Shown in pieces: positions 9,390 through 32,425 of a stretch of 32,425 bases of DNA. The position numbers and the translations under genes were made by a program. How positions within the stretch are numbered: position 1 is the first letter of the stretch; every line of letters starts with the position of its first letter. This DNA is from an uncultured Verrucomicrobiota bacterium (GTDB taxonomy: Bacteria; Verrucomicrobiota; Verrucomicrobiia; Palsa-1439): the NCBI GenBank assembly GCA_903825435.1, contig CAIKAP010000075.1:1-32425 (forward strand), written 5' to 3'. The notes under the pieces were generated by a model. It was given only the letters and a program-made list of their open reading frames with translations, was not told where the DNA came from and did not search any database.

Positions 9390-10627
9390 GGCGTAACAGT
9401 GCGCCGTTCACCGCATTGAGACAAGAAATTTTTACCCAACTCCTGCCTACGCAGGAACAGTGACAGGAAGGACCCCAAGGCAAGCAGCACGGCGCCGAGA
9501 GCGAAGGCGTAGGCGCTGGCCTGCGGGCCGTGGCGATCTTTGAGCCAGGCGACGCCTTGCGGGCCGACGATACCAGCGGCGGACCAAGCGGTCAGGATGC
9601 AGCCGTAGAGGACCGGCATAAGACGGGGGCCAAAGGTGTTCAGCACAAATGACGGCATGACGCCGAAGCCGCCGCCGTAACAGAGCAGAACGTAGCAGAT
9701 CAGCACGCCGAACAGCCACGGGTTGCTGACTTTCATCAAGACGCCAAACGCGACGACTTGCGTGGCGAGCATGATGCGAAAAGTTGCAAGTTGGCCGAGC
9801 CGGTCGGAGAGAGCGCCCCAGCAGAGCCGGCCGAAACCGTTGAAGACGGAACTGACGGCGATCAGCGTCGCACCAAACACAGCCAGCGTGACGGGCGCCA
9901 ACGATGGATCAACTTTTTTCCACAAATCCTGGAGCAGCGGCGACTGGAAACTGATGATGGCGACGCCGGCGACGATGTTGCAGAAAAAAACCAGCCACAT
10001 CAGCAGGAATTGGCGCGACCAAATCGTGGCGATGCCGGTAAGGTCGGTGGGGCCTGTCGGGGTGTCAGGTGGATTACGAAGACCGGTAGCGACGATGAGA
10101 CCGGTGAGACCGACAATCAGGCCGGCACCGGCGAAAACTTCCGGTAATTGAAATTTTGTGGCCAATGCCGGCGCGATGACTTTGCTCATCAGGAGCGCGC
10201 CGAAGCCGAAACCCATCACGACCATGCCGGTGACGAGACCTTTTTTGTCGGGGAACCACTTCGCAACTGTGGCGACGGGCGTGACGTAGCCGAGGCCTAA
10301 ACCGATGCCGCCGATGCCGCCGTAGCCGAGCCACAACAGCGGCAGCGATTTCAAATGCAACGCCAGCGCGGCGAGGAGGTAGCCGGTGCCGTAGAGGAGG
10401 CTACCGGTGATGGCGAGTTTGCGCGGGCCGAATTTCGGCAACAGGACGCCGCCGACGGCGGCGGCGAGACCGAGGAAACCGATGGCGAAGCTGAATGTCC
10501 ACGCAACTTGCGTGTTGCGCCAGCCGTAGCCGTCAACGAGCGGTTTCTGGAAATAGCTCCAGGCGTAAACCGAGCCGAGGCAGAGTTGGAGCAGCGTGCC
10601 CAGGCCGGCAATGAGCCAGCGATTCAT
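9386..10627 (-). CDS. OFA-family major facilitator transporter (oxalate/formate antiporter-like)
   Basis: The product is 413 residues with about twelve predicted membrane helices. The start [76 protein letters not shown] and GRLCWGALSDRLG are characteristic of the OFA family, whose best-known member exchanges oxalate for formate. Many OFA members carry other monocarboxylates, so formate is only a candidate. The context favours a C1 acid: the next gene upstream in the transcript is formate-tetrahydrofolate ligase, whose stop overlaps this start by one base, and the downstream neighbour is the homocysteine methyltransferase. Location is the inner membrane. No Shine-Dalgarno is needed if translation is coupled. 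Confidence 0.87.
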   Translation of the reverse strand: MNRWLIAGLGTLLQLCLGSVYAWSYFQKPLVDGYGWRNTQVAWTFSFAIGFLGLAAAVGGVLLPKFGPRKLAITGSLLYGTGYLLAALALHLKSLPLLWLGYGGIGGIGLGLGYVTPVATVAKWFPDKKGLVTGMVVMGFGFGALLMSKVIAPALATKFQLPEVFAGAGLIVGLTGLIVATGLRNPPDTPTGPTDLTGIATIWSRQFLLMWLVFFCNIVAGVAIISFQSPLLQDLWKKVDPSLAPVTLAVFGATLIAVSSVFNGFGRLCWGALSDRLGQLATFRIMLATQVVAFGVLMKVSNPWLFGVLICYVLLCYGGGFGVMPSFVLNTFGPRLMPVLYGCILTAWSAAGIVGPQGVAWLKDRHGPQASAYAFALGAVLLALGSFLSLFLRRQELGKNFLSQCGERRTVTP

Positions 10628-12315
10628 TAGAACAGACCGACGATTTCGCCTTTGTCATTGATGTCGATGATTTCGGCGGAGGGGACTTTCGGGAGGCCGG
10701 GCATGGTCATGATGTCGCCGAGCAGCACGACGACAAACCCGGCGCCGGCACTGAGTTTCACGTCGCGGATCGGGACGTCGAAGTTTTTCGGGCGGCCACG
10801 CAACGACGGGTCGCTGGACAACGAGTATTGCGTCTTGGCCATACAGACCGGTAGGTGGCCGTACCCGCCTTCCTCGAGTTCCTTGAACTTGGCGCGGATT
10901 TTGGCGTCGGCCATGATGTTGTCGGCGCCGTAAATATTCTGCGCGATGGAGCGGACCTTGTTCCAGAGGCTCATCTCATCGGTGTAAAGGAACTGGAACG
11001 GCTGGGCGGCCGGTTTGCTGGTGATCTCGACGATGGCGTGCGCGAGTTCCTCGGCGCCGGCGCCACCCTTGGCCCAGTGCAGGCACTTGATGGCCTTCAC
11101 ACCGAGCTTCTGGCAGTGGCGTTCGACCACGGCGAGTTCCTCGTCGGTGTCGGCGACAAAGTGGTTGATGGCGACAACGACCGGGAGATTGAACATCCGG
11201 ATGTTTTCGAGATGTTTTTCCAGGTTAACGATGCCTTTCTCGACGGCAACCGGGTTCGGCGTTTTGAGGTCGGCTTTTTCCACGCCGCCGTGCATCTTGA
11301 GGGCGCGGATGGTGGCGACGATGACGACCGCGTTGGGCTGGAGGCCGGCATGGCGGCATTTGATGTCGAGGAATTTTTCCGCACCGAGATCGGCGCCGAA
11401 GCCGGCTTCCGTGACGGTGTAATCGGCGAGACGCATGCCGAGCTTGGTGGCGAGGACGCTGTTGCAGCCGTGCGCAATGTTGGCGAACGGGCCGCCGTGG
11501 ACAAACGCCGGGTTGTTTTCGAGCGTCTGGACGAGGTTCGGCTTAAGCGCGTCCTTGAGCAGGACAGTCATCGCACCGTGCGCCTTGAGGTCGGCGGCCG
11601 TGATCGGTTTCTTGTCGCGGGTATAGGCGACAACGATCCGGCCGAGGCGTTCCCGTAGTTCCTTGAGCGACTCGGAAAGACAGAAGATGGCCATGACTTC
11701 GGAGGCGACGGTGATGTCGAAGCCGGACTCGCGCGGGATACCGTTGGCGTGGCCGCCGAGACCGAGGACGATGTCGCGCAGGGCGCGGTCGTTCATGTCA
11801 ACGACGCGACGCCAGACGATCCGGTTGATGTCAATGTCAAGACGGTTGCCTTGGGTGAGATGGTTGTCGAGCATCGCGGAGAGAAGGTTGTGCGCGGTGC
11901 CGATGGCGTGGAAGTCGCCGGTGAAATGGAGATTGATGTCTTCCATCGGCACGACCTGCGAGTAGCCGCCGCCGGCAGCGCCGCCCTTGATGCCGAAGCA
12001 CGGGCCGAGGGAGGGCTCGCGCAGGCAGATGACGGCGCGTTTGCCGATGCGGTTGAGCGCGTCGCCGAGGCCGACGGTGGTGGTCGTCTTGCCTTCGCCG
12101 GCGGGCGTGGGGCTGATGGCGGTAACGAGGATGAGCTTGCCCTTGGGGACGTTGTCGAGCGAGTGGAAATAATCGAGCGAGATCTTTGCTTTGTATTTGC
12201 CATATTGCTCAATGTGATCAACGGGAATGTTGAGTTTCGCAGCGATTTTTTCGACCGGCTGCATCTTCGACTGGCGGGAGATTTCGATGTCGGACAGGAA
12301 CGTTTGGGTGCTCAT
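10627..12315 (-). CDS. fhs: Formate--tetrahydrofolate ligase
   Basis: The product is 562 residues, full length for the family. It joins formate to THF using ATP to give 10-formyl-THF, and can run in reverse to yield ATP and formate. The ATP-binding loop is [18 protein letters not shown]. Other signatures are [69 protein letters not shown] and [13 protein letters not shown]. The start ATG at 12315 is preceded by AAAAGGAAAA, a good ribosome site. It sits 13 bases after the methyl-THF methyltransferase gene and directly before the OFA transporter. In a demethylation pathway it would be the energy-yielding last step; in a biosynthetic one it would feed C1 units toward MetF. FolD, the link between them, is not in the window. 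Confidence 0.95.
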
Positions 12316-12328
12316 GGGAATTTTCCTT

Positions 12329-13192
12329 TTAGGCGTAGTATTCCTGGACGCGCATGATGACGTCGAAGCCTTCGAGCTTCAGACAGTGAGCGAGGCACTG
12401 CATCGCGGCGTGGTCGGGCGCGAGGATTTCGTATTTGCGTTTCACCGATCCGATGACGTGGTCCATGCCGAGCGGCATCGCCATCGTCAGGAACGCGCTC
12501 TCCAGCGGGCCTTTTGTCGGCGAACCGTCGGCGCGTTTCGGCGGCAACATCACGGTGAAATTGCTGAGACCAACCGACATGTGGACGCCCTTGAATTGCG
12601 GGTCGTCGTGGATCATGCGGATGGATTTTATCAACCGCTGGAACTGGTCGTCGGAGTCGGCGCCGATGGGCGAGATGCCTGCGTCAATGATGCAGTCACC
12701 GACGGCGATGCCGTGCCGCTTCGCCTCGGCGATCATCTGCTTCGCGGTGTCATAGGTCTGCTCGGCGGTGTGGTTGGGCTTGCCGGTGCCGTTCTCGTTG
12801 CGCTCGGTCACGAGTAGGATCGGTTTGAACGGCACGATCTTCTTCAACTCGAACATCTGCACCCGCAACGGCGAAATCGAGTTCAGCGCCGGAATCTTTC
12901 CGCCGGCGCGGGAGAGATCGTAGGCCTTGAGCGCGGCCTCGGCCATCACTGGGTCGGGAGTGTCAATCGAGAGCGGCTTGGCAGTCACGCTCTGGACCTG
13001 GCGCACCATCTCCGCAAGGAACTCCGGCGTTCGACTGCCAACGTTGACGTCGATGTAGCCGGCGCCGCCTTCGTCCTGCGACTTCGCCAGCTCCTTCAGC
13101 CCGGCAATGTCGTTGGCTTCGTAGAGTTTCTTGGTGGACGGGACAGAATCATTGATGGATTCGCCGATGATGGTGAGACCTTGGATGGGCAT
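12329..13192 (-). CDS. Methyltetrahydrofolate:corrinoid methyltransferase (pterin-binding domain, AcsE/MtvA-like)
   Basis: The product is 287 residues of the pterin-binding TIM barrel found in AcsE/MeTr, MtvA and the second module of MetH. Visible signatures are [13 protein letters not shown] at the start, [50 protein letters not shown] and [14 protein letters not shown], with the Asp and Asn residues that hold the pterin ring. It moves the methyl group between 5-methyl-THF and the corrinoid protein encoded upstream in the same operon. Spacing is two bases from the MetF-like gene and 13 bases to fhs. Direction of flow is not visible in the sequence. Dihydropteroate synthase is excluded by the neighbours and by the AcsE-type motifs. 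Confidence 0.92.
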
Positions 13193-13194
13193 GA

Positions 13195-14730
13195 CTATTT
13201 CTCCTTCTTGGCGTTGTGGTCACGGCCGAGGAACGAGTTGGCCCAGCCGGAACTGTTCTTAAGCCCGGCGTTGTAAAAGACCGCCTGGCCTTGGAGCATG
13301 TCTTTGGTTTCTTTGTAGTGCTTCAGGCGCTCGTAGGCGCGCGCCCAGATGCAGTCCTTGTCCTTCAATTCGCACCGCCCGTCGAACGAGCCGCCGCACG
13401 GACCGTTGCGCTGGTTCTTCGAGCACGACCCCTGCGGGCAAAGGTTCGCGATGTCGGGCAGGCTGCAATCGCCGCAGTCGCAGCAGTCGAACATGACCAG
13501 TTTCGACACCTTCTCAACGCCGTGCGCGGTGCGGGAAAGGAAACCGGTGTTCTTGTCCCACCCGGTGTAGATGCGCTTCATGAAGTTAAAGCCGCTGGTG
13601 CCGGGAGTGAAGAACGCGCTGTGGACACAACGCGAGAGGCGATAGTTGAAGTTGACTTCCTTGCTGTCGCCGGGGTGTTCAAGTGAGCGGACGTACTCAC
13701 GGTTCAACGCGCCGTCCGTCTCGAACAAGTAGAATTCGCCGTCGCGGCAGAACTGGATTTCCTTCGCGAACTCCTTCCAGTCGTTCGCGCCGAATTTCTC
13801 TGCCATATCGATGATCTCGAAGAAGCTTTCCGCCTTCGCCATGCCGCCGATGTAGCCACCCGCGAAACCGAGTCCCTTGAAGACAGCAAGCTGTTTCGCG
13901 GCCAGCTCGAAGAAGAACGCGCGCCCCTTGTCGGGCCCCGCGGCGTATTTCTCCGCGAGCGCCAGCAGCTTGTCGCTGACAACGCAGCCCGGCACGTCAT
14001 TGCGGTAGAACATGCCGGCGACGGTCTTGTTGAGCAGATAAACGTTGCCGATGAGCGGAAGGCTGATGCCGTGCGACTGGAGAAACAGTTTCACCTCGTG
14101 GAACTTCCGCATGTCGTAGCCGAGCTGGGTGTAGATGAACTCGGCGCCGTTGCTGATCTTGCGGAGCAGCTTGAAATACTGCGGCATTAACTCGCGCTCG
14201 TACCGTTTGAACGGCGACACCGCGCCCGCGATGTAGAAACTCGTCTTCGGCAGCGTCGTGATCTCGCCCTTGCGTCCCGGCACTGGCAGACCGTCGTTCA
14301 TCGCCTTCAACATCGCGATTAGGCTGACCGAATCGAGGTCGAACGAACCGCTTGCCAGCCCGTGGAACCCTGCCTTCGGATGATCGCCGGTCATGGCGAG
14401 GACGTTGTTGAGGCCCTCGGACGCGAGCCGCCACGCGGTGGATTCGAGCGCGTTGCGGTTGCGGTCCTTGCAAGTCAGGTGAACGACAATCTGGGCGCGA
14501 CGTTTGGCAAGCAACTGTCCCAGCCACTCCGGCGTGAGCATTACGTTGCCGCCCGGGTTGTCGGTGATCGAGACCCAACTGATCCGCGGGTCATCCGTCA
14601 ACGCGTTGCCGAGATCGACAATCTTGCTGGACTGGTCTGCCGGCACGAAACCGCGTGTCGTCACAACTTCTGCGCCGTAGCAGAACCGGCCGCTGGTGAG
14701 GACGTCGCGTAATGTCGGGGTTGTCGTCAT
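13195..14730 (-). CDS. metF: Methylenetetrahydrofolate reductase with MetV-like cysteine-rich C-terminal domain
   Basis: The product is 511 residues. The first 320 or so form a MetF-like flavin TIM barrel (GAEVVTTRGFVP start, ISWVSITDNPGG, VVHLTCKDRN, NNVLAMTGDHP, GAEFIYTQLGYD, PLIGNVYLLN). The last 130 carry the MTHFR-C domain with many cysteines: FDCCDCGDCSL, LCPQGSCSKNQRNGPCGG and RCELKDKDC, followed by WARAYERLK. This tail is the zinc/iron-sulfur type module called MetV when separate in acetogens. I use the ATG at 14730 because conserved protein starts right after it; an in-frame GTG at 14760 would add ten unconserved residues. It interconverts methylene-THF and methyl-THF; the electron carrier is unknown. 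It lies 86 bp after the corrinoid protein gene and two bases before the next. Confidence 0.88.
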   Translation of the reverse strand: MTTTPTLRDVLTSGRFCYGAEVVTTRGFVPADQSSKIVDLGNALTDDPRISWVSITDNPGGNVMLTPEWLGQLLAKRRAQIVVHLTCKDRNRNALESTAWRLASEGLNNVLAMTGDHPKAGFHGLASGSFDLDSVSLIAMLKAMNDGLPVPGRKGEITTLPKTSFYIAGAVSPFKRYERELMPQYFKLLRKISNGAEFIYTQLGYDMRKFHEVKLFLQSHGISLPLIGNVYLLNKTVAGMFYRNDVPGCVVSDKLLALAEKYAAGPDKGRAFFFELAAKQLAVFKGLGFAGGYIGGMAKAESFFEIIDMAEKFGANDWKEFAKEIQFCRDGEFYLFETDGALNREYVRSLEHPGDSKEVNFNYRLSRCVHSAFFTPGTSGFNFMKRIYTGWDKNTGFLSRTAHGVEKVSKLVMFDCCDCGDCSLPDIANLCPQGSCSKNQRNGPCGGSFDGRCELKDKDCIWARAYERLKHYKETKDMLQGQAVFYNAGLKNSSGWANSFLGRDHNAKKEK

Positions 14731-14816
14731 GTTCCGGTTTTGTTCCGGCGGTAAAGACACGCCGGGCCGGTGAGCTTTGTAAAAGGTTCTACCTTGTTTT
14801 CTTCCGTTGTGCCGGC

Positions 14817-15449
14817 TCAGGCGGCCATGAGCTGACGGGCGACGTCCACCGCGCTGGCGGCGTCGGGCGCGTAGCCGTCGGCGCCGATTTCCTTCGCGAA
14901 CTCTTGTGTGATGGGCGCGCCGCCGATGATGACCTTGACGGGGCTGAGGCCGGTTTTCTTGAGCGCCTCGATGGTGGTCTTCATCGCCGGCATTGTCGTG
15001 GTCAACAGCGCGGACAGGCCGACGACCTGCGCGTTGTGTTCCTTGACGGCGGCGGCGAATTTGTCGGGCGAAACGTTCGTGCCGAGGTCAACGACGCCGA
15101 AGTTGGCGCCTTTCCACATCATGGCGACGAGATTCTTGCCGATATCGTGAAGGTCTCCCTGTACGGTGCCGATGACGGCGGTGAACTTCGGCTTGATGCC
15201 GGCCTGCACCAGCAACGGTTCGAGGAGTGCCATCGCTTCCTTCATGGCGCGGGCAGCGATGAGCATCTCAGGAACAAAGATCTGGTTGTTCTTGAACTTC
15301 TCGCCAACCTCGGCCATGCCGGGGACAAGACCTTTCTCGACAATGTCCAGCGGTTTCATACCCGCTGCCAGCAACGTCTTCGTAATCTCGACGGAATCCT
15401 TGCGGTTTCCTTTCACGACTGCTTGGCTCAAAGTTTTCAGGTCACTCAT
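14817..15449 (-). CDS. Corrinoid (cobalamin-binding) methyl-carrier protein
   Basis: The product is 210 residues, MtbC/MtvC type. Residues about 1-85 are the helical cap (LSQAVVKGNRKDSVEITKTLLAAGM, then GEKFKNNQIFVPEMLIAARAMK). Residues about 90-210 are the B12-binding Rossmann fold with GTVQGDLHDIGKNLV, where His101 is the base-off axial ligand of the DxHxxG motif, then GLSALLTTTMPAM and IIGGAPIT. It shuttles a methyl group as methylcobalamin between a donor methyltransferase and the THF- or homocysteine-dependent enzymes of the same operon. It is the promoter-proximal gene, with ribosome site AGAGGAG (15457-15463) seven bases before the ATG and a strong promoter upstream. Being first and singly spaced, it is likely the most expressed component. 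Confidence 0.93.
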   Translation of the reverse strand: MSDLKTLSQAVVKGNRKDSVEITKTLLAAGMKPLDIVEKGLVPGMAEVGEKFKNNQIFVPEMLIAARAMKEAMALLEPLLVQAGIKPKFTAVIGTVQGDLHDIGKNLVAMMWKGANFGVVDLGTNVSPDKFAAAVKEHNAQVVGLSALLTTTMPAMKTTIEALKKTGLSPVKVIIGGAPITQEFAKEIGADGYAPDAASAVDVARQLMAA

Positions 15450-15476
15450 GCGTTATCTCCTCTTGAAAGTGGCGTC

Positions 15477-15505
15477 ACAATAGCGGTTGCCTCGCTTCTT
15501 GACAA
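15477..15505 (-). promoter_or_regulatory. Sigma70-like promoter of the corrinoid operon
   Basis: On the minus strand, TTGTCA (15500-15505) and TATTGT (15477-15482) are separated by exactly 17 bases. Transcription would begin about 7 bases downstream, near 15470, giving a 5' leader of about 20 bases with the ribosome site AGAGGAG. The leader is too short for a cobalamin riboswitch. The -35 box overlaps that of the divergent AraC promoter. Confidence 0.65.
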
Positions 15506-15526
15506 TACCCAAGATTGGCCGATACT
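15499..15526 (+). promoter_or_regulatory. Sigma70-like promoter of the AraC-DUF1638-RACE-archease operon
   Basis: On the plus strand, a consensus TTGACA at 15499-15504 is followed after 16 bases by GATACT (15521-15526, four of six consensus positions). Start of transcription would be near 15533, leaving about 13 bases of leader before the ATG at 15546 and no clear Shine-Dalgarno. The hexamer shares six bases with the opposite -35 box, so polymerase cannot easily occupy both promoters at once. Confidence 0.5.
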
Positions 15527-15545
15527 TGCCTGCCATTGACCGCTG

Positions 15546-16424
15546 ATGAACCTCAACCCGATGGACAACCTGCTCGTCGGCAGCGCCGGAATCGCCGCCT
15601 ATCCTCCGGGCGCAACCTTCGGCCCCAGACTCCTTTACGATTTCCAATTCCTCTGGATTATCGAGGGCAATATCGCTGCCAATTTCGATCAGAAGAAGAT
15701 TTCCGCTTTGCCTGACACTATCCTGCTCGGTCGGCCCGGGATGACGGACCGCTACGACTGGGACCGCGAACGGCGGACCATTCTAGCCTACCTGCATTTC
15801 AGCTTCGACTACTCTGCGCCGGAATGGCCGCCGTTGAAGGAATGGCCTTTGGTCCGGCGGATAACCTCCAATGACATCCTCCGCCCGCTCTTCCGCTACG
15901 CCGTCGGTCTGGCCCAATCGTCGATTCCAGACCGGGATCAACTCCTTGAATCCACCGTCACGCTGATGCTCCACAGTTTCCTCTCCGGCCAGACCGCCGT
16001 CGCGCCGGAGCCATTCGGCAAACTGCCCGGCGCTGTCGAGAAAGCGCTGGCGGCAATACGGCGGGCGCTCGCGCAAGACCCGCCGTTGCCGATCACGCTC
16101 GAAGAACTGGCCCGAACCGCGCACGTCACGGCCGAACATCTTTGCCGGCTGTTTCGGCGCCATCTGAACCTCGGCCCGCTCGAATGCGCCGGGCTGGCCC
16201 GGCTGGAGCGCGCGGCTTCATTGCTGGTCCGCTCGAACCTTGCAGTGAAGGAGGTCGCCGACGCCACCGGGTTCGTCTCGCAGTACCATTTCTCCAACAA
16301 GTTCAAGCGCATCTACGGCGTCTCGCCGCGTGACTACCGCCGCTCGATGCGAGCCGGTTTCATGATTCTCGGCAACCCGATCATCCAACGCCTCCAACTC
16401 CATGTTCCGGAAACCCAACCTTGA
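15546..16424 (+). CDS. AraC-family transcriptional regulator
   Basis: The product is 292 residues. Residues about 1-130 form the cupin-like effector domain (GATFGPRLLYDFQFLWIIEG start, LPDTILLGRPGMTDRYDWD). Residues about 185-285 are the double HTH: ITLEELARTAHVTAEHLCRLFRRHLNLGP for the first and AVKEVADATGFVSQYHFSNKFKRIYGVSPRDYRRS for the second, the classical AraC signature. It is divergent from the corrinoid operon, 96 bp away, across overlapping promoters, and heads the operon carrying DUF1638 and the corrinoid activator. Control of both operons in response to a methyl donor or related small molecule is the natural inference. The effector cannot be read from sequence. Confidence 0.92.
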   Translation: MNLNPMDNLLVGSAGIAAYPPGATFGPRLLYDFQFLWIIEGNIAANFDQKKISALPDTILLGRPGMTDRYDWDRERRTILAYLHFSFDYSAPEWPPLKEWPLVRRITSNDILRPLFRYAVGLAQSSIPDRDQLLESTVTLMLHSFLSGQTAVAPEPFGKLPGAVEKALAAIRRALAQDPPLPITLEELARTAHVTAEHLCRLFRRHLNLGPLECAGLARLERAASLLVRSNLAVKEVADATGFVSQYHFSNKFKRIYGVSPRDYRRSMRAGFMILGNPIIQRLQLHVPETQP

Positions 16425-16460
16425 TTTCGCCCTCTCGCCGGATAGAGTAGCGGCCACCTT

Positions 16461-17186
16461 ATGAGCGAGAAAGTCGCCGTCATCACCTGCGCTGTCTTGG
16501 AAATCGAGCTGGCCCATTTCGCCCGCGAGTTTCCGAACGTCGTCCATACCGAGGTCCTCGAACAGGGCCTGCACAACGAGCCCGACAAACTCCGCCGCGA
16601 ACTCCAAGCCGCCATCGATCGCGTCGAGGCCAACACGGTCGCCGACGTCATCGTGCTCGGGTACGGACTTTGCAGCCGCGGCACTGAAGGCGTGCGCACG
16701 CGGCGTTGCCGTCTGGTGATCGCGCGCGCGCACGACTGCATCACGCACCTACTCGGCAGTAAGGAACACTATGCCGCCTACGTCGCCGAGCATCCCGGTA
16801 CCTACTGGTACAGCCCCGGCTGGAACAGACACCACACGCCACCGGGCCGCGAGCGCTACGAGAATTTCCACCGGCTCTACACCGAGAAGTTCGGCGCCGA
16901 GAACGCCGAGTACCTCATGGAGACCGAACAAGGCTGGATGAAGAGCTACACCCGCGCCGCATTCGTCCACCTCGGCGCGGGCGACATCACCGGCGAATGG
17001 AAACGCACGCAGGAATGCGCCGCGTGGCTCGGCTGGCAATGCGATTTCCAGTGCGGCGACCCGGCGTTGCTGTGCGCGCTGCTTAACGGGCCGTGGGACA
17101 ACGACCGCTTTCTCGTCTTGAATCCCGGCGAAACTTTCCGCATGACAGCGGACGAACGTGTCATTGAAAAAACAAATCCAACTTGA
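16461..17186 (+). CDS. DUF1638 domain protein
   Basis: The product is 241 residues of unknown function. It matches the DUF1638 pattern as I remember it: VAVITCAVLEIEL at the start, a mid-region VIVLGYGLCSRGTEGVR, the conserved RAHDCITHLLGS, GTYWYSPGW and later GWQCDFQCGDPALLCALLNGPWDNDRFLVL. Conserved Cys, His and Asp residues (Cys10, Cys in GLCSRG, HDC, QCGD) suggest a metal or thiol site. The gene is soluble, 36 bp after the AraC gene, and overlaps the RACE gene by 29 bases. DUF1638 genes are often found beside corrinoid methyltransferase genes, so a role in handling the corrinoid protein or methyl donor is plausible but unproven. Confidence 0.85.
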   Translation: MSEKVAVITCAVLEIELAHFAREFPNVVHTEVLEQGLHNEPDKLRRELQAAIDRVEANTVADVIVLGYGLCSRGTEGVRTRRCRLVIARAHDCITHLLGSKEHYAAYVAEHPGTYWYSPGWNRHHTPPGRERYENFHRLYTEKFGAENAEYLMETEQGWMKSYTRAAFVHLGAGDITGEWKRTQECAAWLGWQCDFQCGDPALLCALLNGPWDNDRFLVLNPGETFRMTADERVIEKTNPT

Positions 17187-18657
17187 AATCGAGTCGCCGA
17201 AAGGCACGGCGACCATCGCGACCGCCTCGCACCAGCGGCTCAGCGACGTGCTACGGCGCGAACATCTGCCGTTGAATATCCGTTGCGGCCAGCGCGGCCT
17301 GTGCGACGGCTGCACACTCGACCTCGTACGCGGCACGATCGCCAACATCCACACCGGTGCGGTCGTCAACGCACCGGCATCGGTGCAGGCGTGCCAGCAC
17401 CGTCTCGACAGCGACGCGGCGATCCGGATTCCCGCGCGTTCGTTGCTGGCACACAAGCCGCAGATCGTCAGCGAATTCCGCGTCAATATCCCGCGCGCCT
17501 ACGACCCGCTCGCCAAGACCGGTATCGGCGCGGCAGTGGACGTCGGGACGACGACGGTGGCGGTGGTGCTCGTGGATTTGCGCGACGGCAAGGTTGTCGG
17601 GCGCGCCGCCGATTTCAACAAGCAGTTGAATTTTGGCGACGATGTGGCGACGCGGATCGGTTTGTGCGCCGGGGACAAGACAATGGTAGCGCGGCTCCAG
17701 GAAGCCGTCGTGCAGGAGACCATTTTGCCGCTGCTCGGAAACACGTCGCCTGTTTGTCTCAGCGTGGCCGGCAACACGACGATGCTGCACCTGTTCGCCG
17801 GCGTGGACCCGACGCCGATGGGGACGTATCCGTTCCGCCCGGCGTTTCTGGAACATCGCACGGTGAAGTTGTCGGCGTTCGGCGACGCGGAGGTTCATCT
17901 GTTGCCAAGCGCGGCGGCGTACATCGGCTCGGACATTACCGCCGGTATTTTAGCGAGTGGCCTGGCATACGATGACGGGCCGAGCCTGTTGGTGGACGTC
18001 GGCACGAACGGCGAAATCGTCTTGAAGTCGGGCGGTCGTCTTTTCGGTTGCGCAACGGCGGCCGGCCCGGCGTTCGAGGGCGCGGGGTTGACGAACGGCG
18101 TGCGCGCGGCGGAAGGCGCTATCCAGAAAATACGGCTCGGTGCGGAGACGCACGTTGATGTGATCGGCAAGACGAAGCCGATCGGCATCTGCGGTTCAGC
18201 GTACGTGGATTTCCTGGCGGAAGGCCGACGGACTGGCCTATTGAACGAGCACGGCCGGTTTCGGGAGCGCAGTGAGTTTCCGGTTGCGGCGGGTATCGTG
18301 ATCACGGAGACCGATGTGGCGCATCTGTTGCAGTCGAAGGCGGCGATTGCGGCGGGGATTGTGACGTTGCTGGAACGTGCCGGGCTGACCGCGTCGGCCA
18401 TCAAGCGCGTGTATATGGCGGGCGGGTTCGGTTTGCACATCAATGTCGCCAACGCCATCGGGTGCGGGCTGCTACCGGGATTCGCGACGGAGCAGGTGCA
18501 GGTGGTCGGGAACACGTCGCTGGCGGGCGCGTTTGTGAGCTTGCTGGATCGCGGTGCGCTGGAGGAGATCGCGCGAGTGTGCCGGCAGATCGAGGTGGTG
18601 GAGTTGAATCTGGATCCGGGATTTGAGTCGCGCTACATCGATCATCTCAGCTTATGA
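17158..18657 (+). CDS. Reductive activator of corrinoid enzymes (RACE; ferredoxin-ASKHA protein)
   Basis: The product is 499 residues. The N-terminal [2Fe-2S] ferredoxin-like domain has Cys43, Cys49, Cys52 and Cys79, the Cx5Cx2C...C pattern. A linker leads to an ASKHA ATPase-like domain with GAAVDVGTTTVAVVLVDL, CLSVAGNTTMLHLFAG, LLVDVGTNGEIVL, GPAFEGAGLTNG and VYMAGGFGLHI (DUF4445). Such proteins reduce inactive Co(II) corrinoid proteins back to Co(I) with ATP hydrolysis. The partner is very probably the corrinoid protein at 14817-15449. In a split methionine synthase it would replace the AdoMet-activation domain of MetH. The start is GTG at 17158, inside the end of the DUF1638 gene; the stop overlaps the archease start by four bases. 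Confidence 0.92.
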   Translation: MSLKKQIQLEIESPKGTATIATASHQRLSDVLRREHLPLNIRCGQRGLCDGCTLDLVRGTIANIHTGAVVNAPASVQACQHRLDSDAAIRIPARSLLAHKPQIVSEFRVNIPRAYDPLAKTGIGAAVDVGTTTVAVVLVDLRDGKVVGRAADFNKQLNFGDDVATRIGLCAGDKTMVARLQEAVVQETILPLLGNTSPVCLSVAGNTTMLHLFAGVDPTPMGTYPFRPAFLEHRTVKLSAFGDAEVHLLPSAAAYIGSDITAGILASGLAYDDGPSLLVDVGTNGEIVLKSGGRLFGCATAAGPAFEGAGLTNGVRAAEGAIQKIRLGAETHVDVIGKTKPIGICGSAYVDFLAEGRRTGLLNEHGRFRERSEFPVAAGIVITETDVAHLLQSKAAIAAGIVTLLERAGLTASAIKRVYMAGGFGLHINVANAIGCGLLPGFATEQVQVVGNTSLAGAFVSLLDRGALEEIARVCRQIEVVELNLDPGFESRYIDHLSL

Positions 18658-24734: not shown

Positions 24735-25968
24735 ACTATTCCAGAACGCCGGGTTCCGGCGGTTGTGGGCGTCGCTGGTGGCGTTGTCGCTCGGCGACGC
24801 GCTGATGCAGATGGCGCTGCTGGAGCTGTTTCACCGGCACCACTACGACGAGCGGATCGAGACGGCGAAGATGCTCTTTGCGGTGGCGGTGCCGGGGTTG
24901 TTGTTCGGGCCGGTGGCGATGGCGTATCTGGACCGGTGGCAACGGCGCAGCGTGTTGCTGGTGAGCGACGCGTTCCGCGCGTTCGTGGTGCTCGGGATTG
25001 TGGCGTACGTGTGGCCGCTGGAGACGGGGCGCGTGGAGGAGAGTCACTTGTTCGTGGTGTACGCGCTGATTTTCGTGGTCGGGACGATGGCGACATTTTA
25101 TCTGCCGGCGCGCGTGGCGCTGGTGCCGAACCTGGTGCCGGCGGACAAGTTGATGCAGGCGAACACGCTGTTCACGACGAGCATCGCGGTGGCGGCCATC
25201 GGCGGCCGGGCGCTGGGAGGATTTGTGGCGGAGGTGTTCGGCGTGATGGCCGGCGTGGCGGCAAACGTGGCGGCGTATGTGTTCAGTGTGTGGTGCCTGT
25301 GGCGGATCAAGATGCCGCCGCACGCGACATCGCGTGACGTGGTGGGGCGCTCAACGGGCGGGTGGTCGGAGTTGCGGACGGGGCTGGCGTATTTGTGGGG
25401 GAACGCGCTGGCGTGGCGGCTGGTGTGGGTGGCGGCGGCGTTTGCTTTCGTGGGCGGATTGTTGCTGGTGGAGATCGTGGGGTACGCGATGGAGACGTTG
25501 AGTTTGCGGACCGGCGGCGTGGGCTATTTGATCGGCGCCGGCGGCGCGGGTGCGGCGATCGGCTTGGCTATTTGCGCGCGCGGCCCCAAGTGGGTGCGGG
25601 CGGATTGGTTTACGCCGTTGCAGTTGGTGGTGGTGGGCGCGGCGTTGGCGGGGATGGGGTTGACGAGGCAGGTGTGGGTGGCGGTGCCGTTGGTGGTGGT
25701 GGGCGCGGCGGCGGCGATGGCGGCGATTCACGTGGACGCGAAGTTGCAGGAGCACGTGGAGGAGACGCGGCGCGGGGCAGTGTTCGCGGCGCGCGGGATG
25801 TTGACATCGTTGACGACGGTGATCGCGTTCTGGTTGCAGTTCGGGACGGCGGTGTTGAGGCGGACACCGGCGCCGACGGTGATGTGGTGGCTGGGGCTGG
25901 GGACGATGGCGGCGGGTTTGTTGACGCTGGCGGCGATGCGGATGCGGGTCAGGCAATCTCGACGCTGA
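24727..25968 (+). CDS. MFS transporter of unknown substrate
   Basis: The product is 413 residues with 10-12 predicted membrane helices. It starts FQNAGFRRLWASLVALSLGDALMQMALLE, like the MFS_3/enterobactin-exporter-type group. The A-motif region reads LFGPVAMAYLDRWQRRSVLLVSD, a form of G-x-x-x-D-R-x-x-R-R, and FYLPARVALVPNLVPADKLMQANTL follows. These features fit drug/metabolite exporters or the lysophospholipid transporter LplT, but nothing decides the substrate. It is the third gene of the ABC-RluA-MFS unit. Its last 20 bases overlap the end of the convergent phosphatase gene, and no terminator lies between them. Confidence 0.85.
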   Translation: MRELFQNAGFRRLWASLVALSLGDALMQMALLELFHRHHYDERIETAKMLFAVAVPGLLFGPVAMAYLDRWQRRSVLLVSDAFRAFVVLGIVAYVWPLETGRVEESHLFVVYALIFVVGTMATFYLPARVALVPNLVPADKLMQANTLFTTSIAVAAIGGRALGGFVAEVFGVMAGVAANVAAYVFSVWCLWRIKMPPHATSRDVVGRSTGGWSELRTGLAYLWGNALAWRLVWVAAAFAFVGGLLLVEIVGYAMETLSLRTGGVGYLIGAGGAGAAIGLAICARGPKWVRADWFTPLQLVVVGAALAGMGLTRQVWVAVPLVVVGAAAAMAAIHVDAKLQEHVEETRRGAVFAARGMLTSLTTVIAFWLQFGTAVLRRTPAPTVMWWLGLGTMAAGLLTLAAMRMRVRQSRR

Positions 25969-27157
25969 GCAGGCAGACGTCGTCGATGAACTCTTGTGCG
26001 CCAGCAAATTGCTGGGAGTCGCGGAGTAATTCCTTGAACAGTTCCGGCGTGGGCCGTGCGAGGTTTTGGCGTGTGATGTTGAGGAGGCGTTCCTGTCCGT
26101 ATTCGTCGCCGCTGGCATTAGTGATCTCAAAAAGACCATCGGTGTAGAGGAAAATGGCGTCGCCGGATTCAAAAGGATGCTGAAGGGTGGTGTAGATGGT
26201 GTCGGGGAACAGGCCTAGCGCGGGGCCGGGGCGGTTGTTATTGGTGATGGGGATGATGGTGTTGCGGCTGCGTTGGAGGTGAAGCGGGGCGGGATGGCCG
26301 GCGTTGGCGTAGCGGATTTCGTGGCTGGCGGCGTCGATGACCATGTAGAAGACGGTGGCGAAAATGGTGGCGTCGGTTTGTCGGAGAATACTGACGAGTT
26401 CGCGATTGATTTCGTTGAGGAGGCTGCCGGGATCGGCGGCTTTGGCGATGAGTTCGTCCACGAGTGGCCGAATCATGGCAGTGATGAGGGCGGCGCGGAT
26501 CCCGTGTCCCATGACGTCGCAAATGAAGATGCCGGCGGAGGTGTCGTTGATGGGGAAGACGTCAAAGAAATCGCCGGCGAGGAGAGCAGCGGGCTGGTAA
26601 TGATGGTAAAACTGGAAGAGGGATTGTTCCGGTTTTGTTCCGGGCGGAAATGTGGGGTAGTGCTGGGGCAGGAGCGCCATCTGGACTTCGCGGGCGAGGA
26701 GGAGGTCGGCTTGGATTTGTTCGTTGTAAGCGCGAAGTTCGCGGGCGTAGCGGGCAAGTTCGGCTTCGGTGCGTTTGCGTTCGATGGCATAGCGGATGGT
26801 CCGTATGATGAGTTCGCTGTCGGCCCAACCTTTGACGAGGTAGTCCTGTGCGCCGGCACGAAGGGCGGCGATGGCTTTTTCGTCGCTAGAAGATCCGGTG
26901 AGGACGATGATAGGGAGGTCGGGTGCTATCTCGCGGGTTTTGATGACGGTGTCGAGTCCAGTGGCGTCGGGCAGGGTAAGGTCCACGAGGACGACGTCGA
27001 CGGGGTTGGTGTGGAGTCGGTCGATGGCTTTGGAGAGTCGGTCGAGCCAGGTCAGTTCAAAGGGGGTGGTCTGGGTGTCGCGGAGCATCTCGGAGAGCAG
27101 GCGGGCGTCGCTGGGATTGTCTTCTATGAGCAGGACGCGAATGGGTTGGTCGTTCAT
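25949..27157 (-). CDS. Response regulator with PP2C-type (SpoIIE/RsbU) phosphatase output
   Basis: The product is 402 residues. The receiver domain (1-125) has acidic pair Glu12-Asp13, phosphoacceptor Asp59 ([10 protein letters not shown]) and the conserved Thr/Lys sites (VLTGSS, DYLVKG). A coiled coil (about 130-165) links to the PP2C-like phosphatase (about 170-400) with metal-binding [38 protein letters not shown] and FIDDVCLL. Such proteins dephosphorylate an anti-sigma-factor antagonist (STAS protein) in partner-switching systems; no STAS or anti-sigma gene is in the window. It is the last gene of the signalling operon and overlaps the upstream response regulator by four bases. Confidence 0.92.
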
Positions 27158-27603
27158 GGGTTGTGTTCCGGGAGTTTGACGACGGTGAACCAGAAGGATT
27201 CTATGTTTTTCACGACTTTGATGAACTGATCGAGGTCAATGGGTTTCTGGACGTAGCAGTTGGCGTTGAGGGCGTAGGCTTTAAGAATGTCTTCCTCGGC
27301 TTGGTAGGTGGTGAGGATGACGACAGGGATACTCTTGAGGAGGGGATCGTTTTTGATTTCGGCGAGGACTTCGCGCCCGTCTTTTTTTGGGAGGTTGAGG
27401 TCGAGGAGAATGAGGTCAGGGCGTGGGGCGTTAGTGTGGGCGCCACGGCGGTTGAGGAAGTCCATGGCTTCCTCGCCGTCGTTGACGACGTTGAGTGTGA
27501 CTTTGAGTTTGTCGTCGCGAAGCGCTTCCTCGGTGAGGATGACGTCGCCGGGGTTGTCTTCCACGAGGAGAATTTCGATGAGCTTACTGTTGCAGGTTTT
27601 CAT
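27154..27603 (-). CDS. Single-domain response regulator (Rcp1-like)
   Basis: The product is 149 residues, one receiver domain with no output. It has [19 protein letters not shown], phosphoacceptor Asp68 ([13 protein letters not shown]), VVILTTY and [12 protein letters not shown] with the conserved Lys. The NPGD and NLPKKDG blocks are those of Rcp1-type regulators that pair with bacteriophytochrome-like kinases such as the one directly upstream. It overlaps both neighbours by four bases, so it most likely serves as a phosphate relay between the kinase and the REC-phosphatase or another target. Confidence 0.94.
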
Positions 27604-30023
27604 GAGAGGGTATTCCCTTGCTCGGGTAGGGTGAAGTGGAACGCAGAACCGCTGCCGGGTGTGGACTCGACCCAGATGCGACCGCCGTGGCGTTCGACGA
27701 TCTTCTTGCAGAGGGCCAGCCCGATGCCGGTGCCGGGATATTCTTCGAGGCTGTGGAGGTGTTGGAAGATGACGAAGATGCGCTGAAAATCTTTCGAGTC
27801 AATGCCGATGCCGTTGTCTCGGACGGTGATGACCCATTCTCCGGGGCGTTGTTTGGCGACGACGTGGATGGCGGGCGGTTTGGAGCCGTGGAATTTGATG
27901 GCGTTGCCGATGAGGTTCTGGAAAAGCTGGGTGAGTTCAGTGGAGTCAGCCATGATGGTAGGCAATGGGTCGCTGGTGACGGTGCCTTGTTGTTCGACGA
28001 GGGCTGGCTGGAGGTTACCGATGACGGTCTTGAGGACGGCGTTGCAGTCGGTGGGTGCAAAGGGGCGGCCTTGGCGTCCCACGCGGGAATACTGTAGTAG
28101 GTCGTCAATCAGCTTGCGCATGCGCCCGGCGCCGTCCACGGCAAAGCGGATGTATTCGTCGGCATCGGAGCCAAGTTTGCCGGCGTAGCGGTGTTGGAGG
28201 AGTTGGAGAAAGCCGGAGATGCTCCGCAACGGCTCCTTCAGGTCGTGGGAGGCGGCGTAGGCGAATTGTTCGAGTTCGACGTTGGAGAGGCGGAGGTTCT
28301 CCTCAACGTGTTTACGTTCGGTGATGTCGTTGTTAGTTTTGAGGATACCGCTGGGGTAGCCTTTGGCGTCGCGAACCAAGGCCCAGCGGCTAGCGACGAC
28401 GAGGTGGTGGCCGTCGCAGGTAAGCTGTTCCAGTTCACCTTCCCAGCGCCCGTTCTCGAGTAGTTCGGCAGTAATCTGTTTCAGAAGGACAGGAGAGTGT
28501 GTTCCCAAGATCTCGTGGGATTTTTGTCCCAGCACGTTGTTCTGCCGCCAGCCGTACATGCGTTCGGCGCCGCGGTTCCAGAACTGGATGCGTCCATCCA
28601 TGTCGCAGACGAGGATGGCGTCGTGGGTCAATTGAAGCAGTTCGGCTTCGCGGCGGGCGTCTTCTTCGGCGCTGTGACGCGCGGTGATGTCAAGTGCGAT
28701 GCAGGTGAGGCCGGTGATGTGGCCATCGGGGTCGCGCAACGGTTCGATAGTGATATCGTAAAAATAGGTGGTTTCGCGATAGGTGAGGGGCAGCGTGGCG
28801 CGGGTGCCGGTGCCGGTGTCGAGGACGCCGCGTTTCAATTCGGTGATGGCGGCGCCTTCTTCTGAGGATAACATCTCGGCGTCTGTCTTGCCGACGAGAT
28901 CGTAGACGGGAAATGGTGCTTTCGGATAATGGATCCACGTGTAGCGTAGTTTCTGGTCGTGTCGGAAGACGGCGATGGGGGCGCTGGTGACGGCGAGGCG
29001 GAAACGCTCTTCGCTTTCGCGGAGGGCTTTTTCGATATGGGCGTACTCGGTGAGTTGGACTTGGAGGGCGGCATTGGAGTGGGCGAGTTCGGTGGTGCGG
29101 CTAGCGACGAGCAGTTCGAGGTGGGTGCGGTGCTTGTAGAGTTCCTCCTCAATACGTTTACGGCGCAGCAACTGCCAGAGGTTGGCCATCAATAGGGCTA
29201 GTCCGCGCGCATTAGCTTCGGTGTAGGGGGACTCTTTGTTGGCGACATTGACGAGCGCGACGATGCGTTCGCCGTCAAAGACGGGCACGGTCAGGTAGCG
29301 GGTCGGTGTGGTGTGGTCCTTAGGGAAACACGGCGGGCAGGCGTCGGGTGTGGTGGGGTTGTTGTGGATGATGAAATGGCGTTGGCTGATGGCTTCCATC
29401 CACGGGCTGCTTTCGTGGATTTTGATGATGGCGGGTTTGTCGCCGGGGGCGGACTCGGCGCGGAGTTGTTTGGAGTAGTGGTGGATGGTAAGGACGGATT
29501 CGTCCTCGTTGAGGAAGCCGAGACAACCGTAGTGGCTGGCGGTGAGTCTAACGCCCTCCTCAAGGGCGACGTTGGTGATGGTGTCGGCGGGTAGGTCGGA
29601 GATTTGGTAGAGACGGACGAGGACTTCGAGGCGTTCGTTTTCGGCGGCGAGTTCGCGTTCGGCGCGTTTCAGGGGAGTGATGTCGCGGACGATGGCTTGG
29701 ACGACGCGCTGGCCAGTGAACGGGTCGGCGGTGAGGAAGGAGTCGTGGAGGACCCAGCGGTCCTCGCCCTTGAGGGTCTTGAAATGGTACTCGTAGCCGT
29801 GGATTTCGCCGTTTTTTTCAAGGAGGCGTCGGATGGTGCCGGGTGGCTCGACGTAGGCGAGGACTTCGTCGAGGTGTTTGCCGACGAGGGCTTCAGGAGG
29901 ACAGTCGAGGCCAAGGATGCGCACAAGGCCGCGGTTGGCCATGAGGATGCTGGCCTCGTCGAAGGTGTAACAATTCACTCCTTCTTCGGTGAACTCCAGC
30001 AGTCTGCGGTAGAGTTCCTGCAT
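27600..30023 (-). CDS. Cytoplasmic multi-sensor histidine kinase (PAS-GAF-PAS-PAS-HisKA-HATPase)
   Basis: The product is 807 residues with no membrane helix. I use the ATG at 30023, preceded by GGTAGAG at a suitable distance; an in-frame TTG ten codons earlier is less likely. Domains: PAS with PAC (about 1-125, [18 protein letters not shown]), GAF (about 140-285, [12 protein letters not shown] and [21 protein letters not shown]), coiled coil, PAS (about 330-450), PAS (about 455-575, [23 protein letters not shown]), HisKA with His593 ([12 protein letters not shown]) and HATPase ([29 protein letters not shown]). The kinase core is of the phytochrome-related type and closely resembles that of the next kinase upstream. 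No conserved Cys for a bilin chromophore is evident. It overlaps the response-regulator gene by four bases. Confidence 0.92.
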
Positions 30024-30068
30024 GGCTATTACTCTACCCAAGAACGCGGGCAACGGCCAGCGATTTTA

Positions 30069-31613
30069 TCAGGCATCGTTGGACGTGGCAGGGATGCTGA
30101 AGAAGAAGATGGAGCCTTTGCCCGGCTCGGACTCGATCCAGATGCGTCCTCCGTGGCGCTCGACGATTTTGCGGCAGACGGCGAGGCCGATGCCGGTGCC
30201 GGGGTATTTGTCAGAGGAGTGGAGGCGCTCGAAGATGACGAAGATACGTTTGTGGTACTGGGAGTCAATGCCAATGCCGTTGTCGCGGACGTTGAAGACC
30301 CACTCGGAGTTCTGATGGTTGACGCCGATGTGGATTTGTGGCGGCTCGTCAGGGCGGTGGAACTTGATGCCGTTGCCGATGAGGTTCTGGAAGAGTTGGG
30401 TCAGTTGGGTCACGTCGCCTTGGACAGTGGGCAAGGGGCGGTCGTAGGTGACTTTGGCGCCGGTTTCCTCGATGGTGGCGCGTAGGTTTTCCAGCGCCAT
30501 GTCCAGCGCGGTCCTGCAATCGGTCGGTTGGAATGCCTGAGCGTGAGTTTCCACCCTGGCGTACTGGAGCAGGCCGGTGATGAGGGCGTCCATACGGAGG
30601 GCGCCGTTGACGACGAAGTTCATGTAGCGTTCGTTGTCGGCGTCGAGCTTGCCTTGGAGGCGGGCTTGGAGGATCTGGACGAAGCTAGTGATTGTGCGCA
30701 ATGGCTCGCGCAGATCGTGGCTGGCTACGTAGGCGAACTGCTCCAGTTCGGAGTTGGAACGGGCGAGGGCGAGGCTGGCTTGTTTTAGGCGTTCATTGGC
30801 AGACCGTAAAGCGTTGGTGCGGTCGGCCACCAGTTCTTCGAGGTGGTCGCGGTGCCGACGGACTTCGTCCTCGGCTCGCTGGTGCTCGGTGATCTCGTGT
30901 TGGAGTGCCGTCTCGCTTCGCTGGATGCCGTCGAGCATCTGGTTGAAGATGGCGGTCAGATGGCCGATCTCGTCTTCGCTGTGTTGTTCAGCGCGCATGG
31001 AGTAGTTTTTGCTGGCGGTGATGCTCTGGGCGATGCGGGCCAAAGCGAGGATGGGATCAGAGACGCTGCGTTGGAGCAGGGCGGAGAGGACATAGGTGAC
31101 GCCGATGGCCAGCAGCAACACGAAGACGGTCATCAGTCCGTACACGCGGAGGCGGTCGTAGAGTGGATGCAGGTCGCTCTCGATGCAAAGAGTGCCAATG
31201 TGTTTGTTGTTGAGCACGACGGGGCGAACCACTTTTAGGGAGTTCCCTTCGTAGCGTTCGCCGTCGGGGCCGGGCGGGGATACAGGTGCCAATGGATTGC
31301 CTTCCTCGCCGATGAATGAGGCGAAGGGCTGGTCGTTCTTGTTGTAGAGGTCAGCGCGGAGGATGTGAGGGCGGGCGCGCAACGCCTGCAACGTCTCGCG
31401 TCCGGAGGAGGCGTCGTTGAAGGAGAGCGCGGCGGTGCTGTTGGCGGCGAGCACGTCGGCGAGCACCGCCAGGTCATTGGCCATCGTACGGCGGGTGGTG
31501 AACCAAACGTTGCCCATGAATGCGACCGACGCCAGCAGCAACGCGGCGGCGCTGGTGATCTGGATGATCAACATCAGCTTGTCCTGAAGTCCCATGCGGT
31601 ACCACCAAGTCAT
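30069..31613 (-). CDS. Membrane sensor histidine kinase (CHASE8-like sensor, HAMP, HisKA, HATPase)
   Basis: The product is 514 residues. Transmembrane helices lie at about 13-37 and 157-180; between them is a periplasmic sensor with DLAVLADVLAANSTAALSFND, the CHASE8 signature. HAMP (about 181-235), a coiled coil and HisKA with His299 (ASHDLREPLRT) follow, then HATPase with NLIGNGIKF, NGIGIDSQYH and [18 protein letters not shown]. The stop is 45 bp before the next kinase gene and the start is one base after the YfiR-like stop. In such loci YfiR-like proteins sit in the periplasm and could modulate the sensor domain. Probable phosphate acceptors are the two receiver proteins of the operon. Confidence 0.93.
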   Translation of the reverse strand: MTWWYRMGLQDKLMLIIQITSAAALLLASVAFMGNVWFTTRRTMANDLAVLADVLAANSTAALSFNDASSGRETLQALRARPHILRADLYNKNDQPFASFIGEEGNPLAPVSPPGPDGERYEGNSLKVVRPVVLNNKHIGTLCIESDLHPLYDRLRVYGLMTVFVLLLAIGVTYVLSALLQRSVSDPILALARIAQSITASKNYSMRAEQHSEDEIGHLTAIFNQMLDGIQRSETALQHEITEHQRAEDEVRRHRDHLEELVADRTNALRSANERLKQASLALARSNSELEQFAYVASHDLREPLRTITSFVQILQARLQGKLDADNERYMNFVVNGALRMDALITGLLQYARVETHAQAFQPTDCRTALDMALENLRATIEETGAKVTYDRPLPTVQGDVTQLTQLFQNLIGNGIKFHRPDEPPQIHIGVNHQNSEWVFNVRDNGIGIDSQYHKRIFVIFERLHSSDKYPGTGIGLAVCRKIVERHGGRIWIESEPGKGSIFFFSIPATSNDA

Positions 31614-31614
31614 G

Positions 31615-32208
31615 TCAGCCGCCCTCCCTTTCCGATTCAGGGTACAGGCTGAACGCCAGGTTCAGCAACTTGGAGCTGACCTTGAGGCTGGCCTTCGCGG
31701 CGGTCTCGGAGTTGATCTCGAAGCGGACTTTGTTCTCGTGAATCACGAACCCAATCATGCCGCCGTGGCGGACGAACTGGTCGCTGTCGCTGACGGTGAC
31801 GACAGGGACGCCCTTTAGCGCAGCCAGCACCTGCGGCAGGCGCGCCTGTTCGGAGCGGCTGATGAACAGTAACTGGCAGGCGTGCACATCTTCGATGCGT
31901 TTGAAGAGTCTGATGACGACCTTGCGGCCGTGAACGGTCTCACCTTCGACGGTCTGGCTGAGCACGGCGCCGAATGGGTTGTTGCCGAGGATACCGATGA
32001 CGAGCGGGGCGTTGGCGTCGGCGAAGGCGTTGGTGGGCCATTCGATGAACTGAGTAAAGTTGAACAAGAACGCGGCCTTGAGCTGGTACTCGGAGTAAGC
32101 CACCGGCTGCACTCTAGCCGGACACGCCGTGCGGGGCGTCAACATGAACAGGCATGTGGCCGCCAGCGCCGTCAGCCAACGGCGAATGGGTGAGAATCGG
32201 GTTCGCAT
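31615..32208 (-). CDS. YfiR family periplasmic protein (DUF4154)
   Basis: The product is 197 residues. The ATG at 32208 gives a signal peptide (MRTRFSPIRRWLTALAATCLFMLTPRTA); upstream codons in the same frame run through the tail of another gene and are not used. Family features are EYQLKAAFLFNFTQFIEWP, LVIGILGNNPFG, VHGRKVVIRLFKRIEDVHACQLLFIS, VVTVSDSDQFVRHGGMIGFV and the end VRFEINSETAAKASLKVSSKLLNLA. YfiR in Pseudomonas is a periplasmic repressor of the diguanylate cyclase YfiN; here the partner is more likely the adjacent sensor kinase. The order TonB-type receptor, YfiR-like protein, kinase is recurrent in bacteria (from memory). It follows the receptor stop by eight bases. Confidence 0.92.
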   Translation of the reverse strand: MRTRFSPIRRWLTALAATCLFMLTPRTACPARVQPVAYSEYQLKAAFLFNFTQFIEWPTNAFADANAPLVIGILGNNPFGAVLSQTVEGETVHGRKVVIRLFKRIEDVHACQLLFISRSEQARLPQVLAALKGVPVVTVSDSDQFVRHGGMIGFVIHENKVRFEINSETAAKASLKVSSKLLNLAFSLYPESEREGG

Positions 32209-32216
32209 GACGATGC

Positions 32217-32290
32217 TCAGTAATTGATCCGCACACCGAAGACGCCGTGGAAGGATTCCTGTGGATAGGCCATTCCCGCGATGCCACCTA
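32217..32290 (-). pseudogene. C-terminal end of a TonB-dependent receptor-like outer-membrane protein, cut by an IS
   Basis: Reading leftwards, a frame ending at TGA 32217-32219 encodes GGIAGMAYPQESFHGVFGVR followed by INY. Alternating strand pattern and a final aromatic residue are those of the last beta strand of TonB-dependent receptors and related barrels, including the YPQ turn. The upstream part is replaced by the end of an IS630-type transposase within about 15 codons. The position right before yfiR and a kinase fits a receptor. The rest of the gene, if any, lies beyond the window. Confidence 0.5.
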
Positions 32291-32425
32291 GTGTAGTGTT
32301 TCCAACGCTTCTTTACATTTGGCAATTTTTGTCATGATGCGGTTCACCGGCGCGGTCCAGACGAACACTTTGGGATTTTGGTTGTGATTCTTCAAGTACT
32401 CGGCGATGGCGGCAATCAGCTCTGC
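32288..32425 (-). mobile_element. C-terminal fragment of an IS630-family transposase
   Basis: Forty-five codons are visible, ending in TAG at 32288-32290; the gene continues beyond the right edge. The translation AELIAAIAEYLKNHNQNPKV, FVWTAPVNRIMTKIAKCKEA, LETLH matches the end of IS630-type transposases (LIxAIxxYLxxHNxxPKPFxWTxxAxxIxxKIxRxxxxL). The last DDE residue should lie just upstream of the visible part. Base composition is more A/T-rich than the flanking genes. IS630 elements insert at TA, and a CTAG occurs exactly at the junction. The terminal inverted repeat cannot be identified from one end. Confidence 0.75.

Follow-up and report, generated by a model that had tools for sequence, protein, structure and literature searches.

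An IS630-family element appears to truncate a TonB-dependent receptor gene upstream of yfiR in a Verrucomicrobiota genome

The window, which is the whole 32,425-nucleotide contig (C75) of an uncultured Verrucomicrobiota bacterium, ends on the right at base 32425 inside an IS630-family element. It is highly probable that this element, which has about 19 near-identical copies in the genome, has struck a CTAG lying close to the 3' end of a gene for a TonB-dependent receptor and has thereby truncated the receptor of a YfiBNR-like relay. The front of the receptor gene is situated on another contig (C62), and the last 23 codons remain in the window, next to yfiR. The source genome is 3.43 Mb long and is distributed over 242 contigs, with a completeness of 96% and an estimated contamination of 3%.

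Organization of the right edge of the window

The 3' end of the element occupies positions 32291-32425 on the minus strand. Its tip bears the inverted repeat (GTGTAGTGTT), and it carries the last 45 codons of the transposase. When read on the minus strand, these 135 bases give the transposase C-terminus AELIAAIAEYLKNHNQNPKVFVWTAPVNRIMTKIAKCKEALETLH, which is followed by TAG. The CTAG target site is located at 32288-32291, with the duplicated dinucleotide TA at 32289-32290. The TAG stop of the transposase corresponds to 32288-32290 on the minus strand, in agreement with the original prediction, which had placed this stop at a CTAG. Positions 32217-32288, also on the minus strand but in a frame different from that of the transposase, translate to GGIAGMAYPQESFHGVFGVRINY and then TGA. 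These are the last 23 codons and the stop of the TonB-dependent receptor.

The ATG of yfiR is situated 8 bases past the receptor stop, a stretch of 79 bases separates it from the stop of the transposase, and the transposase and yfiR are read in the same direction. The yfiR gene (31615-32208, minus strand; DUF4154, YfiR/HmsC-like) matches PF13689 at 2.4e-49 and is the sole YfiR match in its genome. The genes that follow it on the same strand were assigned from their domain matches. They encode a CHASE8-HAMP-HisKA-HATPase histidine kinase (30069-31613), a GAF/PAS histidine kinase (27600-30053), a single-domain response regulator (27154-27603) and, as the last gene of the run, a response regulator having a SpoIIE phosphatase domain (25949-27157). 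A consensus scan of positions 31900-32425 found no promoter-like site (0.2 expected by shuffling) and no terminator-like site (0.5 expected), a result that does not discriminate between loss and gain of a promoter through the insertion.

Structure and copies of the element

The 3' end of the element (up to 138 bases) is present at 19 contig ends having 19 distinct flanks, with the boundary CTAGTGTAG in every one of them, showing that the element boundary seen in the window is not due to chance. The opposite, 5', end is found at 18 contig ends of the same genome. It contains CTAGTGTAGTGTTACATAAATAG in 18 of 18 cases and opens into the reading frame MNITERIILSPEEQLTLQRWAQGKRL, as read on C62. 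The sequence CTAGTGTAGTG occurs 36 times in the genome, 18 times at the 3' ends (all except that of C150) and 18 times at the 5' contig ends. The terminal inverted repeats consist of GTGTAGTGTT at both element tips and diverge further in; in the C150 copy a single base of this repeat is different, just within the element boundary. Both sets of contig ends belong to a single element, one set representing its 5' terminus and the other its 3' terminus, with the same repeat at each tip. Thus, both the transposase start and the terminal inverted repeats, expected beyond the right edge if the feature was an insertion sequence, were located, the start together with the 5' end on contigs outside the window.

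The transposase of this genome is known from its last 45 and about its first 26 codons. The middle of the element is absent from the assembly, as is expected of a collapsed repeat. The 45-residue transposase end is by itself too short to match a model. Three full-length relatives, which were located through this C-terminal end, match the NCBIfam IS630 model NF033545 with 256-266 bits (the cut-off is 100) and also match PF13358 (Pfam DDE_3), which supports an assignment of the element to the IS630 type. Judging from relatives of 364-388 residues, a full copy would measure about 1.1-1.2 kb. In the source genome PF13358 matched two other loci, neither of which is this element.

When 57 genomes were searched at the DNA level with the 3' end of the element, a match was found in the source genome only. 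Protein searches with the 45-residue end gave matches in 15 of 141 and in 14 of 387 genomes, the source genome included. The nearest transposase C-terminus found is 66% identical and belongs to a remnant in genome G258 that lacks a readable 5' part. A back-translated ten-residue transposase motif had no matches in genome_contigs, a set that may omit the source genome, and the searches did not yield a complete copy of the element. A second transposase end of the IS630 type, which is 52% alike, is found at five further places in genome G000 (C35, C34, C170, C156 and C27); in at least two of them, C35 and C27, it lies at the contig start.

The CTAG target and the transposase stop codon

CTAG is present at all junctions, namely at 19 of 19 of the 3' ends and 18 of 18 of the 5' ends. 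The same tetranucleotide accounts for 127 of the 3837 TA sites present in 157 kb of analysed sequence, element junctions included, and comparison of this proportion with the 19 junctions indicates a strong target preference. A preference for TA inside CTAG is named for IS630 in the title of Tenzen and Ohtsubo (1991; via PMC2170065). At these junctions TA and CTAG are indistinguishable as the duplicated unit. In the relative L044 the left side reads GTA, which favours TA as the duplicated unit and suggests that the outer C is probably part of the target and not of the element.

The transposase does not bring its own stop codon; its TAG is supplied by the target CTAG, as the TA together with the G. 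Relatives of the transposase were taken from 36 loci, 35 of which could be read (L091 gave no match), several of the 35 representing the same element repeated within a genome. The same form of the stop (...CAC TAG), apparently provided by the target, is found in seven of these 35 loci (L041, L042, L046, L047, L049, L081 and L083). Among the remaining 28, 13 have their own stop followed by ACACTAG within about 35 bases, one breaks off at ACACT, and neither feature is seen in 14. No description of a target-made transposase stop codon was found in the portions of the IS630-family literature that were available.

The element resembles IS630 and ISY100 (IS630-Tc1-mariner) in its TA target and the duplication thereof, in its preference for CTAG, in its inverted repeats, and in the match of its full-length relatives to the IS630 transposase model. 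It is nevertheless a separate element, and differs from them in that its transposase stop codon is created by the target.

The receptor on both sides of the element

The front of the receptor is encoded on contig C62 (L080:6988-9162), which is one of the 18 contig ends that have the 5' side of the element. It contains a TonB plug domain (PF07715, 3.4e-16) and a barrel domain (PF00593, 2e-23). The genes preceding it on C62 encode an NMT1-like binding protein and a HAMP-GAF histidine kinase. An AbiEi/AbiEii toxin-antitoxin pair is also present on this contig, upstream of the receptor genes (L080 264-1852).

When the flanks on C62 and in the window are joined at a single CTAG, one open frame is formed, reading ...DLFADLRNVTDNRNAL-GGIAGMAYPQESFHGVFGVRINY. 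Receptor sequence therefore does continue beyond the element, in the form of a plug and barrel joined in frame to the tail, as was predicted for a TonB receptor truncated upstream of yfiR. The presence of CTAG at all junctions, with one CTAG left in the joined frame, is likewise in accord with the TA duplication anticipated for such an insertion. No contig spans C62, the element and the window. Because the middle of the element is absent from the assembly, the link between C62 and the window rests on protein continuity together with the target sequence.

The exact 18-mer of the empty site is absent from the assembly; its single match having one mismatch is on C193 and lacks CTAG. A search for other copies of the receptor in the same genome gave a sole match, of 32% identity and confined to the plug region, on C179. 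A receptor-front pattern scan of genome_contigs, which may omit the source genome, gave seven matches, none of them a relative. One alternative is that the insertion is not fixed and that part of the sampled population keeps an intact receptor. The 242 contigs at 96% completeness are like a metagenome bin, and the element copies are near-identical at their ends, implying that the insertions may be recent. The empty-site sequence would be evidence of such a mixture but is missing, although an assembly does not show minority forms. Polymorphism of this kind is a real possibility, but less likely than not.

Three receptors encoded directly upstream of YfiR, L116 (genome G013), L119 (G052) and L129 (G300), are 50-52% identical to the receptor over about 430 residues. 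All three align without gaps across the join between C62 and the window, for example NHYALYGIYGMAVPQETFSGVLGVRVTF. Their alignment scores are 435, 464 and 407 bits with the joined receptor and 406, 439 and 387 bits with the truncated one, so that the tail adds 20-29 bits. The 23-residue tail shares 14, 11 and 10 of its 23 residues with the C-termini of three YfiR-upstream receptors, which upholds the earlier assignment of the last barrel strand to the second frame. In the same comparison L110 and L113, which are of another receptor type, did not match the joined receptor. In a BLAST comparison of the joined receptor with four same-family receptors the C-terminal match was weak, and the tail was reached by G003_C4 alone (E 0.16).

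With the element present, the receptor ends in ...DNRNALV-stop and the last 23 residues are lost. When the 28 frames found upstream of YfiR (25 of them barrels) were used as a profile, the match extended to the final residue of the solved colicin I receptor chains, indicating that the 23 lost residues constitute the terminal strand. The terminal strand of a barrel is recognised by the barrel-assembly machinery and is needed for barrel assembly. Judging from the loss of this strand, the truncated receptor is probably not assembled. A truncated receptor that is still functional, its last strand being dispensable or replaced, appears improbable. The truncated protein does match the Pfam barrel model to the last position of the model. 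However, complete relatives reach the end of the model about 30 residues before their own ends, showing that the model does not reach as far as the last strand. Furthermore, the truncated chain ends in NRNALV, as opposed to F, Y or W as the C-terminal residue in 26 of the 28 frames that precede YfiR at other loci.

In its plug and barrel domains and in its matches to solved chains, the receptor is like the colicin I receptor, BtuB and the ferric enterobactin receptor. It differs from these in being encoded beside YfiR and sensor kinases.

It is also conceivable that C62 and the window are no longer neighbours, having been separated by recombination between element copies after the insertion. 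Such an exchange could occur with about 19 copies of the element in one genome, but the receptor front and tail fit at the codon level, and the order of receptor, YfiR and CHASE8 genes agrees with that in relatives. This rearrangement is therefore considered very unlikely, and the receptor would be broken in either case. That the tail is a chance frame or belongs to a different small gene, with no receptor interrupted, can practically be discarded: the frame has only 23 codons inside the window, but a like tail follows the same body, without gaps, in the three related receptors that align through the join.

Other proposed contig pairs at copies of the element

Six contig pairs were proposed as the two sides of element copies. 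The five besides C62 and the window (C18/C101, C8/C24, C7/C162, C61/C78 and C68/C10) were picked by eye from protein continuity. The C68/C10 pairing (L063, L018) is well confirmed: a ZnuA-like gene is split, with profile positions 1-134 on one half and 136-262 on the other. The C18/C101 pairing is partly confirmed, as one half reaches 129 of the 154 positions of SGSH_C and the other half has no match. Repeat proteins are encoded by the DUF11 and PATR pairs, whose pairings are weak. The halves of C7/C162 gave no profile match. Thirteen 3' ends and twelve 5' ends are unpaired.

Ranking the 18 x 19 possible joins according to how long an open frame spans them was rejected as a pairing method. It put first only C7/C162 of the six proposed pairs, and the top partner that it gave for the window was C232, in a different frame, and not C62.

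Very long autotransporter-like frames seem to have been struck by copies of the element on C61, C78, C7 and C162 (L061, L014, L051 and L012), with PATR repeats matching in C61 and C78. On C229 (L022) a copy of the element adjoins the open frame of another transposase (DUF772).

The receptor, YfiR and CHASE8 gene set

In genomes of the same family, the order of receptor, YfiR and CHASE8 kinase is kept in four loci of three genomes (L075-L078). A fifth same-family locus (L079, in G005) has no receptor beside YfiR. A survey of the class found YfiR at 64 places in 44 of 188 genomes. Thirty of these loci were obtained, and of the other 34 places G003:C4 (L075) alone was examined. The counts given below refer to 28 of the 30 loci, L111 (the window itself) and L137 (G005, with a contig end downstream) having been left out; L123, L128 and L131, which belong to the 28, coincide with L077, L078 and L076.

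The frame just upstream of YfiR has a TonB receptor barrel in 25 of the 28 loci. The three misses are a phosphomannomutase (L122), an 81-residue piece having a barrel-like end (L133), and L110, which has a barrel-like end and is 56% identical to L113, which does match. In the frames just downstream of YfiR, CHASE8 and HAMP domains are each found 27 times, the CHASE8 frame being absent next to YfiR in L126. HisKA is found in 16 of these frames, HATPase in 10 and an MCP signalling domain in one. GGDEF is absent among the 18 families detected in the downstream frames, which were cut about 1.5 kb after YfiR. The one downstream protein with the MCP domain (among the 28 frames of alignment A2) is a YfiR-linked protein with a chemoreceptor output.

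The prevalence of TonB barrels upstream and of CHASE8-HAMP proteins downstream (27 of 28) shows that the receptor belongs to a YfiBNR-like gene set, in which it is in the place of YfiB. In the papers found to name both YfiR and a TonB-dependent receptor, titles and abstract openings mention no such operon.

Excerpts of two papers describe that in YfiBNR the outer-membrane protein YfiB removes YfiR from YfiN (PMC4887326), and that the CHASE8-GGDEF cyclase of a YfiBNR-like operon is a YfiN-like protein (PMC8294551). As in YfiBNR of Pseudomonas aeruginosa and E. coli, YfiR is encoded here beside a CHASE8-HAMP sensor half, and an outer-membrane partner is found within the same gene run. However, this partner is a TonB-dependent receptor and not the OmpA/Pal-like lipoprotein YfiB, and the output is a HisKA-HATPase histidine kinase, whereas YfiN is a CHASE8-HAMP-GGDEF diguanylate cyclase. 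At the locus in the window YfiR itself is present (PF13689), with a predicted role as periplasmic repressor. There is no YfiN, as CHASE8-HAMP is followed by HisKA-HATPase, and the YfiB slot upstream of yfiR is taken by the TonB receptor.

Possible consequences of the insertion

Upon insertion the element would have left TA (or CTAG) on both of its sides, and the last 23 residues of the receptor are now stranded between the element and yfiR. By analogy with YfiBNR, the relay would have the TonB receptor as its outer-membrane component, YfiR as its periplasmic component and the CHASE8 histidine kinase as its inner-membrane component. Loss of the receptor would leave this relay without an input, and YfiR, if it is still made, would keep the kinase repressed. 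Alternatively, the insertion might also lower the expression of yfiR, in which case the kinase would be freed. In both cases the direction in which YfiR acts on the histidine kinase is borrowed from the diguanylate cyclase system. Read-through from the transposase into yfiR appears possible from the sequence, because the transposase reads towards yfiR, the distance from stop to start is 79 bases, and there is no terminator-like site.

It may be tentatively suggested, with somewhat less than an even chance of being correct, that in the relay of this class the TonB receptor, and not YfiB, binds or releases YfiR and so acts on the CHASE8 kinase (or, in one case, on a chemoreceptor-type output), and that the present genome, which has a single relay of this kind, carries a natural knock-out of the receptor in it, with a transposase directed towards yfiR. 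The insertion is of a known kind and represents routine mobile-element wear; the gene set of receptor, YfiR and CHASE8 protein is of more interest. Should the proposed mechanism hold, the relay would connect the binding of a ligand at the outer membrane to a histidine kinase through a known periplasmic repressor. A natural receptor-less variant would help to test the direction of the signal.

Other genes of the window

A formate-THF ligase, a methylene-THF reductase carrying DUF5981 and a protein of the RACo type are encoded near one another at positions 9389-18654 of the window, a grouping like that of acetyl-CoA pathway clusters.
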